From Agromyces luteolus (GTDB lineage: Bacteria; Actinomycetota; Actinomycetes; Actinomycetales; Microbacteriaceae), in NCBI RefSeq assembly GCF_009729855.1, contig NZ_WODA01000025.1, forward strand, positions 682,001-746,000: DNA of 64,000 nt, read 5' to 3'. The notes below the pieces were generated by a model. It ran no database searches and was not told the DNA's origin. It saw only the letters and a list, made by a program, of their open reading frames with translations. Of this stretch, positions 32,051 through 54,096 are shown piece by piece (position 1 is the first letter of the stretch; each line of letters starts with the position of its first letter). The translations under genes and the position numbers were made by a program.

Positions 32051-32091
32051 CGACGGGGGATGCCGCGGCGACCCCGCGGCATCCCCCGTCG
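32051..32091. terminator. typA terminator
   Basis: Perfect 18-bp stem (32051-32068 with 32074-32091, loop CGACC) starting 13 nt past the typA stop codon. Confidence 0.8.
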
Positions 32092-45965: not shown

Positions 45966-46097
45966 GAGTTCTCCAGGATCGCGCGGATCACGCGGCGGTC
46001 GCCGCGGAAGAACTCCCCCTCTGTCATGGGCCTGAGAGCTTCGCGACGCTCCGGGGGAGCTGTGCTTTCACCTTCGGCGGCTCACGACGAACGGGAG

Positions 46098-46136
46098 GAT
46101 CTCGATACGGGCCGACGTCGTCGGTCCTACTCGATC
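46098..46136. repeat. 39-bp REP-like palindromic element B in the riboswitch linker
   Basis: Begins GATCTCGATAC, ends CTACTCGATC, with inner GCCGAC/GTCGG arms. It lies between the two aptamers. Same length as element A at 44316, with similar CTCGA-based ends. Confidence 0.5.
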
Positions 46137-46159: not shown

Positions 46160-46306
46160 CTTTTCAGAGTCGGCCTCGTCATCGCGGTGATGCGACCTGA
46201 GAGATTGGCGGGGAGGCTTGCTCCTTCGGTGCCGAACGGCTCCCCGGAGGGATCCGTGCGGCTCTCCCGCGATGCGTCGATGGCCCGGTATGCGGTTGTC
46301 GGGGGA

Positions 46307-46484: not shown

Positions 46485-47264
46485 ATGTCGCAGCACGACG
46501 CGCACGCGCGCCTGGCCGTCTCGACGGTCATCTTCGCGCTCGCCCCCGACCAGGCCGACGGCGTCGTCGAGGTCCGCGAGCGTCCCGCCAGCCTGCGCAT
46601 CCCCCTCGTGCGTCGTCTCCGCGAGCCCGGGCTCGGCCGCTGGGCGCTCCCCGGCGGCTGGCTGCCCGTCAGCGAGGCGCTCGACGGCGCGGCGGCGCGC
46701 ACGCTGCATGAGACGACCGGGCTCGCCCCGAAGTACCTCGAGCAGCTCTACACGTTCGGCGACCCCGACCGCTCCCCCGGCGAGCGCGTCGTCTCGGTCG
46801 TGTACTGGGCACTCGTGCACTCCGACGAGGTCGAGCGCGCCGTCTCCGACGAGAACGTCCGGTGGTTCGACGAGGACGCGCTGCCCGACCTCGCCTTCGA
46901 CCACGCCGCGATCATCGACTACGCGCTCCGGCGCCTGCGCACCAAGCTCGTGTACTCGCGCATCGCGCACGCGCTGCTCGGCGAGCGGTTCACGATGGCC
47001 GAGCTCCGCCGCGTGCACGAGGCCGTCCTCCGGCGCCGCCTCGACCCCGCGAACTTCCGACGCACGATCGAGGCGTCCGGCACCCTCATCGACACCGGCG
47101 AGCGCCTCGCGGGCACGCGCCACCGCCCGCCGGCCCTCTACCGCTTCGACCCCGCCCATTCGCCCGTGGCGTCGCCCTCACCGGCGCCTGCGGCGCCGCC
47201 GCACGCGGCATCCGCCACCGCATCCCACACCAGGCCCGGAACGCACAGCAAGGAACCGCAATGA
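46485..47264 (+). CDS. nrtR: NrtR-type Nudix regulator of NAD synthesis
   Basis: A 259-residue repressor with an N-terminal Nudix-like domain (VSTVIFALAPD...) and a C-terminal winged helix (KLVYSRIAHALLGERFTMAELRRVHEAVL in order). The Nudix box GGWLPVSEALDGAAARTLHETTGL is degenerate (the REUXEE core reads RTLHET), as in NrtR regulators that sense ADP-ribose without hydrolysing it. It overlaps nadA by ATGA and has palindromes over its promoter, arguing for control of its own NAD operon. A Pro/Ala-rich tail ends the protein. Confidence 0.9.
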   Translation: MSQHDAHARLAVSTVIFALAPDQADGVVEVRERPASLRIPLVRRLREPGLGRWALPGGWLPVSEALDGAAARTLHETTGLAPKYLEQLYTFGDPDRSPGERVVSVVYWALVHSDEVERAVSDENVRWFDEDALPDLAFDHAAIIDYALRRLRTKLVYSRIAHALLGERFTMAELRRVHEAVLRRRLDPANFRRTIEASGTLIDTGERLAGTRHRPPALYRFDPAHSPVASPSPAPAAPPHAASATASHTRPGTHSKEPQ

Positions 47265-48689: not shown

Positions 48690-50300
48690 ATGACCGCCGT
48701 GCTCGTCGTCGGCTCCGGCATCGCCGGGCTGTGGACGGCGATCCGCGCCGCCGAGGCGGGCTGCGACGTCACCGTCGTGACGAAGGCCGCGATCGGCGAG
48801 GGATCGACGCCCTGGGCGCAGGGCGGCATCGCCGCGGCGATCTTCGCGGGCGACGCGCCCGCGCGACATGCAGCGGACACGCTCGCCGCGGGCGCCGGGC
48901 TCGGCGACGCCGACGCGGTCGACGTGCTGACGACGGAGGGCCCGGCCCGCATCCGCGACCTGATCCGGTTCGGCGTCGCGTTCGACCGCGACGAGTCCGG
49001 CATCGCGCGCGGACTCGAGGCGGCGCACTCGCGCGCCCGCATCCTGCACGCGGGCGGCGACGCGACGGGTGCGGCGATCGAGGCGGCGCTCGTGGCGACG
49101 GTCCGCGCGCGCGGCATCCGCGTGCTCGAGCGCACGACGCTCGTCGACCTCGTCGTCGAGGGCGGCCGGGTCGTCGGTGCGCACGTGCTCGTCGAGGGCG
49201 AGGCGGATGCCGCGGGCGCGACGCCCGCCGTGCTCCGGGCGGACGCCGTGGTGCTCGCGACCGGCGGCGCAGGCGTGCTGTACGCCCACACGACCAACCC
49301 CGACGTCGCGACGGGTGACGGCGTCGCGGCGGCCGCGCGCGCCGGTGCCGAGGTCGCCGACCTCGAGTTCGTGCAGTTCCACCCGACGGCCCTCGCGGTG
49401 CCGGGCACCCCGCTCATCTCCGAGGCCGTGCGCGGCGAGGGCGCGGTGATCCGCGACGCGGACGGCCGCCGGTTCCTGCTCGACGTCGACCCGCGCGGCG
49501 AACTCGCCCCGCGCGACGTCGTCGCGCGCGCCGTCTGGCGGCGGATGGCCGAGCAGGGCGGCGAGCCCGTGCGCCTCGACGCGACGGCGCTCGGCGCGGA
49601 GTTCCTCGCGCGGCGCTTCCCCTCCCTCGACCGGGCGTGCCTGGCCGCGGGCTTCGACTGGTCGCGCGAGCCCGTGCCGATCGTGCCGGCCGCGCACTAC
49701 GCCATGGGCGGGATCGCGACCGACCTCGACGGGCGCTCGAGCCTGCCCGGGCTCTGGGCCGTCGGCGAAGCCGCCCGCACCGGCGTGCACGGCGCGAACC
49801 GGCTCGCCTCGAACTCGCTCCTCGAGGGCGCGGTGTTCGCCGAGCGCGCCGCCGCCGCGATCGCGCACGCGGCATCCGCCCCTGCCGATCTCATCTCCCA
49901 CGTTCACGACGGCGGATATACGATCCGCCGCACCGGAGGCGGACCGGGCCCGGGCGGCGCGGCGGATCGTATATCCGCCGATGTGGACCCGAGCCGGGCG
50001 AGCGGGCCGGTCGATCGCGGCGAGCTGCAGCGGCTGATGTGGAGCCGCGTCGGGCTGGAGCGCGACGCGGCCGGGCTCGCCGAGGCATCCGCTCGCCTGG
50101 ACGGCTGGCGCGCGCCCGACCCGGTCGACCGTCGCAGCGTCGAGGACCGCAACCTCCTCGACCTCGCCCGGCTCACCGTCGCCGCGGCGCTCGCCCGCAC
50201 CGGGAGCGTCGGCGCCCACACCCGCACCGACGCGCCGACGACCGCCGCGGCCGGCGCCGACGGCGCACGCCGCACCGACCTGGAGAGGCAGGCCGCCTGA
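48690..50300 (+). CDS. nadB: L-aspartate oxidase
   Basis: A 536-residue FAD enzyme oxidising L-aspartate to iminoaspartate for NadA. The FAD site is VVGSGIAGLWTAIRAAEAG. Active-site blocks are FVQFHPTAL, EAVRGEGAVIRDADGRRF and HYAMGGI. The C-terminal helical domain begins ELQRLMWSRVGLERD. Between the two (about residues 408-430) a Gly-rich segment is encoded by a nested palindrome pair, so this linker looks inserted. It overlaps nadC by one base (TGATG). Confidence 0.95.
   Translation: MTAVLVVGSGIAGLWTAIRAAEAGCDVTVVTKAAIGEGSTPWAQGGIAAAIFAGDAPARHAADTLAAGAGLGDADAVDVLTTEGPARIRDLIRFGVAFDRDESGIARGLEAAHSRARILHAGGDATGAAIEAALVATVRARGIRVLERTTLVDLVVEGGRVVGAHVLVEGEADAAGATPAVLRADAVVLATGGAGVLYAHTTNPDVATGDGVAAAARAGAEVADLEFVQFHPTALAVPGTPLISEAVRGEGAVIRDADGRRFLLDVDPRGELAPRDVVARAVWRRMAEQGGEPVRLDATALGAEFLARRFPSLDRACLAAGFDWSREPVPIVPAAHYAMGGIATDLDGRSSLPGLWAVGEAARTGVHGANRLASNSLLEGAVFAERAAAAIAHAASAPADLISHVHDGGYTIRRTGGGPGPGGAADRISADVDPSRASGPVDRGELQRLMWSRVGLERDAAGLAEASARLDGWRAPDPVDRRSVEDRNLLDLARLTVAAALARTGSVGAHTRTDAPTTAAAGADGARRTDLERQAA
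49911..49979. repeat. Nested palindrome pair inside nadB
   Basis: 21-bp arms 49911-49931 and 49959-49979 are exact inverted copies around a 27-nt centre. Each arm contains a self-palindromic 19-mer, GGCGGATATACGATCCGCC or its complement, so four GGCGGAT half-sites are present. The AT-rich core stands out in nadB. Confidence 0.9.
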
Positions 50301-54054: not shown

Positions 54055-54096
54055 ACGACGACGGGCGCCCTCCGGCTGGAGGGCGCCCGTCGTCGT
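54055..54096. terminator. Bidirectional terminator
   Basis: Perfect 19-bp stem (54055-54073 with 54078-54096) and GGCT loop between the convergent efflux and VWA genes. Confidence 0.8.

Follow-up and report, generated by a model that had tools for sequence, protein, structure and literature searches.

The nadB gene of Agromyces luteolus lies in the 64,000-nucleotide stretch of genomic DNA analysed here (the window) and carries a large perfect inverted repeat within its coding sequence. Where does such a palindrome come from, and how is it accommodated in an enzyme? The first-pass annotation had drawn attention to two copies of GGCGGAT-N5-ATCCGCC set in exact inverted arms of 21 bp, and had proposed an inserted mobile palindromic unit, an internal operator pair or a cruciform. 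Both copies are indeed exact and mutually inverted, and the perfect arms measure 22 bp, one base pair more than described. An imperfect outer stem extends them to a segment of 87 bp (Table 1).

The nadB palindrome and its host gene

In an inverted-repeat scan of the whole window, the palindrome ranks first (score 23, runner-up 19); the arm pair is absent from the output of a general repeat search of the window. When up to three mismatches are allowed, the window holds 13 matches to GGCGGAT-N5-ATCCGCC against 10.8 expected, so that just the exact matches carry weight. Folded as RNA, positions 49895–49995 reach −68.2 kcal/mol (z = −6.75), a value equalled by none of 200 shuffles. The fold statistics, together with the dispersed copies described below and their reversed control, rule out a chance origin.

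The host gene was identified as nadB by TIGR00551 (493.6 bits, cut-off 452.75); an NrtR-type gene with NrtR_WHD and NUDIX matches (46485–47261) lies upstream of it. In agreement with the first-pass annotation, the segment sits in the linker between FAD_binding_2 (residues 5–378) and Succ_DH_flav_C (residues 444–519) of L-aspartate oxidase, where its 29 codons encode residues 406–434 (numbering from 48687) and leave the reading frame open throughout.

Table 1 Features of the nadB palindrome, in positions of the window
Feature	Position	Strand	Basis or remark
In-frame type A element copy, 87 bp = 29 codons, VHDGGYTIRRTGGGPGPGGAADRISADVD	49902..49988		Bounds set by the imperfect outer stem
Left arm (22 bp), matching the right arm exactly in inverted orientation	49910..49931	+	Inverted-repeat scan
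Right arm, 22 bp	49959..49980	-	Inverted-repeat scan
Palindrome inside left arm, GGCGGATATACGATCCGCC	49911..49929		Pattern match
Palindrome inside right arm, GGCGGATCGTATATCCGCC	49961..49979		Pattern match
Host gene nadB (L-aspartate oxidase)	48690..50300	+	Start codon chosen; open frame from 48627

Two other features of the window were recorded. Tandem glycine riboswitch aptamers (46011–46116 and 46175–46279, minus strand; RF00504, 32.9 / 58.2 bits) lie immediately to the left of the NrtR-type gene. The next inverted repeats of the window (54055–54096, 32051–32091 and 1318–1362; scores 19, 18 and 17) have short loops and are perhaps terminators.

Palindrome families dispersed in Agromyces genomes

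A 17-bp core of the palindrome (type A) was searched with up to two mismatches in 60 Agromyces genomes, the window's own included, with the reversed core as control (genomes are given as G numbers, G000 being the window's own, and loci as L numbers). It matched in 26 of the 60. Forward/reverse matches numbered 31/30 in G047, 13/13 in G007, 12/12 in G045, 10/10 in G021, 6/6 in each of G009 and G014 and 5/5 in G034, against 0–1 per strand for the control; lone unpaired matches are probably background. Further copies were thus found in the relatives, with about 30 in G047, but not in the window's genome, where the search returned no type A core besides the nadB copy. The first-pass annotation had reasoned that presence in all related NadB proteins with only synonymous drift, combined with a lack of other copies in the genome, would refute its reading: many NadB proteins in fact lack the segment, although its own genome indeed has no other copy of this core.

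Thirty type A copies outside nadB, from 23 loci, were aligned. The identity of their arms is 0.77 and that of their 18-nt loops (27 loops) is 0.295, which is the random level. The loops are therefore unrelated between copies, which indicates that most copies are old or have been rewritten and is unlike a recent spread. The spacing between arms is 52 in 27 of the 30 copies and 53 in one, whereas all six nadB copies (G000, G012, G007, G018, G049 and G047) have 53. This one-base offset makes the segment 29 codons long and, like the dispersal of the core in other Agromyces genomes, supports the proposal of an inserted mobile unit.

Nine of ten type A loci checked in G007 fall outside coding-like frames of at least 100 codons (L151 is ambiguous). 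With gene direction taken from codon-position GC rather than from annotation, 14 dispersed elements lie between convergent genes, 13 between tandem genes and 4 between divergent genes, with 5 left unassigned, a distribution that tells against the internal operator pair. Rfam gave no match over 16 element loci, and the type A core had no match in viral contigs.

A second type (type B, CGACACGCC-N6..36-GGCGTGTCG) is present in 32 of the 60 genomes, with 101 forward matches, 4 in the reversed control and at most 14 per genome. In G041, the genome richest in type B, nearly all copies have the outer stem GAGTCGTCGG, L097 being the exception. Elements generally span ~50–100 bp and combine a family-specific outer stem with a copy-variable loop; about half of them (48 of 96 flanking hairpins) also contain an inner core resembling GACACGCCG...CGGCGTGTC. 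Copies number in the tens, not hundreds, per genome searched.

The nadB linker is itself variable. Among the nadB genes of 52 of the 60 genomes (the other eight, being split, truncated or otherwise unusable, were left out), its length ranges from 37 to 84 residues, which rules out one conserved NadB linker. There are short linkers free of palindromes (52 residues in G001, 53 in G017), and there are linkers with different palindromes, both of which favour insertion. Six contain type B matches (G013, G020, G023, G025, G028 and G030). The linker of G041 contains GTCGCGAGTCGTCGG, the stem of the dispersed copies in that genome, and that of G054 contains GCATTCGCCGAATGTCGGAT, which is also the stem adjoining the G054 partner gene described below (L298). 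The linkers of G033 (L063) and G042 (L360) hold in-frame tandem copies of a third palindrome; it consists of GCCCGACTTTCATGAAAGTCGGGC and variants, and the protein reads as repeated LPDFHESRASRD.

On a quick NadB tree built with the linker excluded, the six type A rows require six changes, at least four of them forced by starred branches. All linker labels taken together are unclustered (24 changes, shuffled mean 22.2); the type B label, two 8-mers with up to two mismatches in GC-rich DNA, is loose and must include false positives, so the tree was used for the type A row alone. The varied linkers and the changes on the tree suggest repeated insertion, or conversion, of palindromes at this site, and the linker would then be one that tolerates in-frame copies. 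Between G000 and G012 the nadB element is identical at 83 of 87 positions and the remainder of nadB at 1372 of 1518.

An AbiEi_4-DUF559 gene flanked by hairpins

In six genomes, a single gene lies between two type A elements ~1.1 kb apart. The neighbourhood is common to the six, which thus represent one inherited locus and not six events. In G047, type A elements are found on both sides of this partner gene. Its product contains an AbiEi_4 winged helix (4.7e-9) and DUF559 (5.6e-7; PF04480, 29.9 bits, cut-off 20.6), with REase_MTES_1575 below threshold. Residues E208, D235, E245, D247 and H252 are invariant in 27 partner homologues, as is an H-C-C-H set (126, 129, 131 and 134). In the AlphaFold model of a homologue from Agromyces sp. 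H66 (42 sequences, mean pLDDT 93.1), residues 192–264 run alpha-beta-beta-beta-alpha-beta, which we take to be the order of a PD-(D/E)XK nuclease. Domain matches and model together predict a winged-helix protein with a PD-(D/E)XK nuclease domain.

A PDB search by sequence gave a sole match, 3hrl, ‘Endonuclease-Like Protein’ (E 0.013). Judged by Pfam domains and model topology, the partner is not a tyrosine transposase of the HUH/Y1 class, as found in IS200/IS605. The AbiEi models of PADLOC match just residues 15–106 (two proteins), short of a full-length AbiEi; NCBIfam returned no match to the partner protein, and a plasmid search returned four weak ones.

Close homologues of the partner (E < 1e-60) occur in 31 of the 60 Agromyces genomes. 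The seven genomes, G007 included, whose protein is at least 59% identical to that of G007 all have at least five forward type A matches; three of the other 53 (G034, G010 and G044) have at least three.

Hairpins with an ungapped score of at least 13 stand beside the gene at 19 of 30 Agromyces partner loci (30 of the 31). In a set of named genomes (the best 80 of 131 loci, from Agromyces, Microbacterium and a few others), 63 of the 80 loci have a hairpin within 350 bp of the gene, a count that includes hairpins merely overlapping this zone, compared with 10 of 847 control tiles placed at a distance of over 800 bp. Hairpins were upstream at 46 loci, downstream at 39 and on both sides at 22. When one centre rule was applied to both, with a rough coding mask, the density was 2.40 hairpins per non-coding kb near the gene and 0.146 in the control. 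At 18 of the 22 two-sided loci, the two stems share 11 or 12 of 12 bases, as opposed to 5.4% of cross-locus pairs. The hairpin also recurs at 33 of 39 further loci of the same bacterial family (control 1 of 156) and at 9 of 11 loci from other families of the class (control 0 of 44); these 39 and 11 loci are the best-scoring ones rather than a random sample, are partly genes of the 80-locus set (for example L296/L229, L302/L255 and L305/L239), and have approximate gene bounds where they lie at contig ends. Weaker Agromyces homologues have a hairpin (score of at least 12, within 450 bp) at 15 of 20 loci, those lacking one being L326, L335, L339, L342 and L343. No hairpin reached the threshold at 17 of the 80 named loci and 11 of the 30 Agromyces loci.

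The flanking stems vary from species to species, and the stem beside the partner is also that of the dispersed copies in G000, G007, G041 and G039. The G039 gene is a weaker homologue (L338) with GTCTGCCGGATTCGGAGAT on both sides, the stem of the distant type B copy L096. In the searches for types A and B, seven of the 31 genomes with a close partner (G016, G024, G027, G029, G033, G035 and G052) gave neither a type B match nor a paired type A match.

Two loci have an unusual form. In G031 (L165, G031:C1:729300-733200), a type B pair ~1.19 kb apart and with identical loops surrounds a gene that, judging its translation by eye, is alpha/beta-hydrolase-like and that stands where the partner gene would. 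In Microbacterium oxydans (L258), an inverted repeat whose arms measure 57 bp around a loop of a single base lies directly 3′ of the partner gene and greatly exceeds the usual elements in length.

A close homologue of the type A partner is lacking in the window's own genome, where the best one is 34% identical (G000:C9:235199-236032). The hairpin beside this gene has the stem GCATGAGAATCCGC and, as predicted, this stem (up to one mismatch) is dispersed in the same genome, with 23 forward and 23 reverse matches and 0/0 in the reversed control. It gave 16/13 matches in the relative G012, 5–9 per strand in G018, G031, G046, G052 and G055, and 0–4 in the remaining Agromyces, where the control gave 0–2. 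The 17/6 matches in G017 are spread over several contigs, with GCACGAGAATCCGC recurring every ~336–354 bp on one strand, and resemble a tandem repeat more than hairpins. In the window's genome, 21 loci hold 29 elements, 27 of which have 56 bp between arm ends, and three elements of this family surround the partner gene, covering both of its sides. The nadB copy thus belongs to another family and, as a close type A partner is lacking in G000, would be an orphan.

Eleven of these 21 loci have a homologous locus among 20 loci of G012. At L398:818-920, conserved flanks enclose an element in the window's genome but a short unrelated stretch in G012, and tandem copy number differs between the two genomes at L399/L424, L407/L429 and L398/L433. 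At L408/L428, G012 (L428, G012:C37:59000-61500) is ~560 bp longer and contains a second element, where the window's genome has one, possibly through loss or gain of a segment between two elements. Homology stops at the element at L406/L416. A search of G012 with the DNA of L412 for an empty site found two separate homologous places, none cleanly empty.

Origin of the elements and relation to REP/RAYT

Considering these findings, the nadB segment is very probably an in-frame copy of a dispersed Agromyces palindrome family that goes with an AbiEi_4-DUF559 partner gene. The best reading of the whole is a REP/RAYT-like system in which a nuclease-type partner replaces the tyrosine transposase, one copy of the element having become protein sequence in nadB. 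We tentatively propose, by analogy, that the partner protein may recognise its own stem and nick or cut the extruded hairpin, and that this cutting would spread or maintain the elements, as RAYTs do for REPs. AbiEi_4-DUF559 proteins might then be a second, independent solution to the RAYT role, a suggestion that we put forward with similar reserve: in Actinomycetes, each such nuclease would recognise, cut and propagate (or convert) the hairpins of its own family across the genome, its stem specificity would shift from one species to the next, and now and then an in-frame copy would turn into protein, as in Agromyces NadB.

Alternatively, the palindromes could be conserved and immobile binding sites of the partner protein, serving a regulon, chromosome organisation or RNA processing, with the nadB copy as a site in a coding region. 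The extract of PMC7319586 describes AbiEi antitoxins as binding inverted repeats beside their own gene, type A arms are themselves palindromic, and conserved arms around random loops are as for old constrained sites. We nevertheless consider this explanation unlikely because (i) convergent and tandem positions exceed divergent ones (14 and 13 against 4), (ii) stems differ between species, and (iii) one site is present or absent, and several tandem numbers change, between species that are ~90% identical in nadB DNA.

It is likewise doubtful that another enzyme or process (a RAYT, IS200/IS605, another transposase or template switching) spreads the elements while the DUF559 gene often travels with them as a mere passenger or stands between them as a defence gene. 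The type B pair around an unrelated gene in G031, the elements without a close partner in some genomes and the segment between two elements in which G000 and G012 differ (L408/L428) would fit this explanation, but it has to contend with the enrichment of hairpins beside homologues across the bacterial family and beyond, with the agreement in stem between the two sides of one locus, and with the identity of partner-side and dispersed stems in the four genomes named above. A vertically inherited regulatory hairpin in nadB mRNA, kept by compensatory change, would account for the strong fold (z = −6.75) and for the hairpins that many Agromyces nadB linkers contain, but is highly improbable and, as the whole story, is ruled out by the same sequences dispersed outside nadB, the palindrome-free linkers, the lack of an Rfam match at the site and the NadB tree.

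The REP/RAYT-like reading can be set against known systems. The likeness to REP/RAYT (REPtron), as outlined in extracts of the published accounts (PMC2817692, PMC3733652), lies in palindromes that are dispersed and mostly intergenic, in two repeats that flank the partner gene, in stem and partner that vary together, and in the occurrence of intragenic copies. In contrast to the HUH tyrosine transposase of those accounts, the partner here is a winged helix with a predicted PD-(D/E)XK domain; the Agromyces elements are longer, have large random loops and occur in tens rather than hundreds of copies. No GTAG (or CGTC) head as outlined for REPs was seen in the stem-bounded alignments of type A arms or GCATGAG copies. 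As the layout matches but the enzyme does not, the system is REP/RAYT-like in layout, not a member.

The nadB copy, a dispersed palindrome carried in frame by a gene that stays open, recalls the Rickettsia palindromic elements (RPEs), which lie in frame inside protein-coding genes. In the extract of PMC10969869, RPEs are ~150 bp long and reside in 44 genes of one genome, whereas among the copies examined here one gene, nadB, is affected; the comparison is one of description. CGTC-tagged palindromes, which have been compared with RPEs, apparently have no dedicated enzyme according to the extract of PMC3733652. With the AbiEi antitoxins of type IV toxin-antitoxin systems, as they appear in the extract of PMC7319586, the partner shares an N-terminal AbiEi_4 winged helix and inverted repeats adjoining the gene; it differs in that its C-terminal domain is DUF559 and its repeats, which are long hairpins, are scattered genome-wide.

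Among the matches listed in a search of open-licence papers, no title or abstract start describes DUF559-linked palindromes, which, given this limited coverage, is weak evidence of novelty; the elements and their partner appear to represent a previously undescribed type of mobile repeat of soil bacteria. REPs and RAYTs are the best-known pairing of a dispersed bacterial palindrome with a dedicated enzyme. The coupling of a different class of protein, stem for stem, to its own palindromes would mean that pairs of this sort had more than one origin, and would suggest a function for a family still of ‘unknown function’ in Pfam (DUF559). Furthermore, the switching of stems between species offers natural material on the joint change of protein and hairpin specificity, and the nadB copy extends protein-coding palindromes beyond Rickettsia, here with a candidate source. 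Stems with variable loops are also found in integron attC sites, a resemblance only, from which the Agromyces elements differ in being dispersed.
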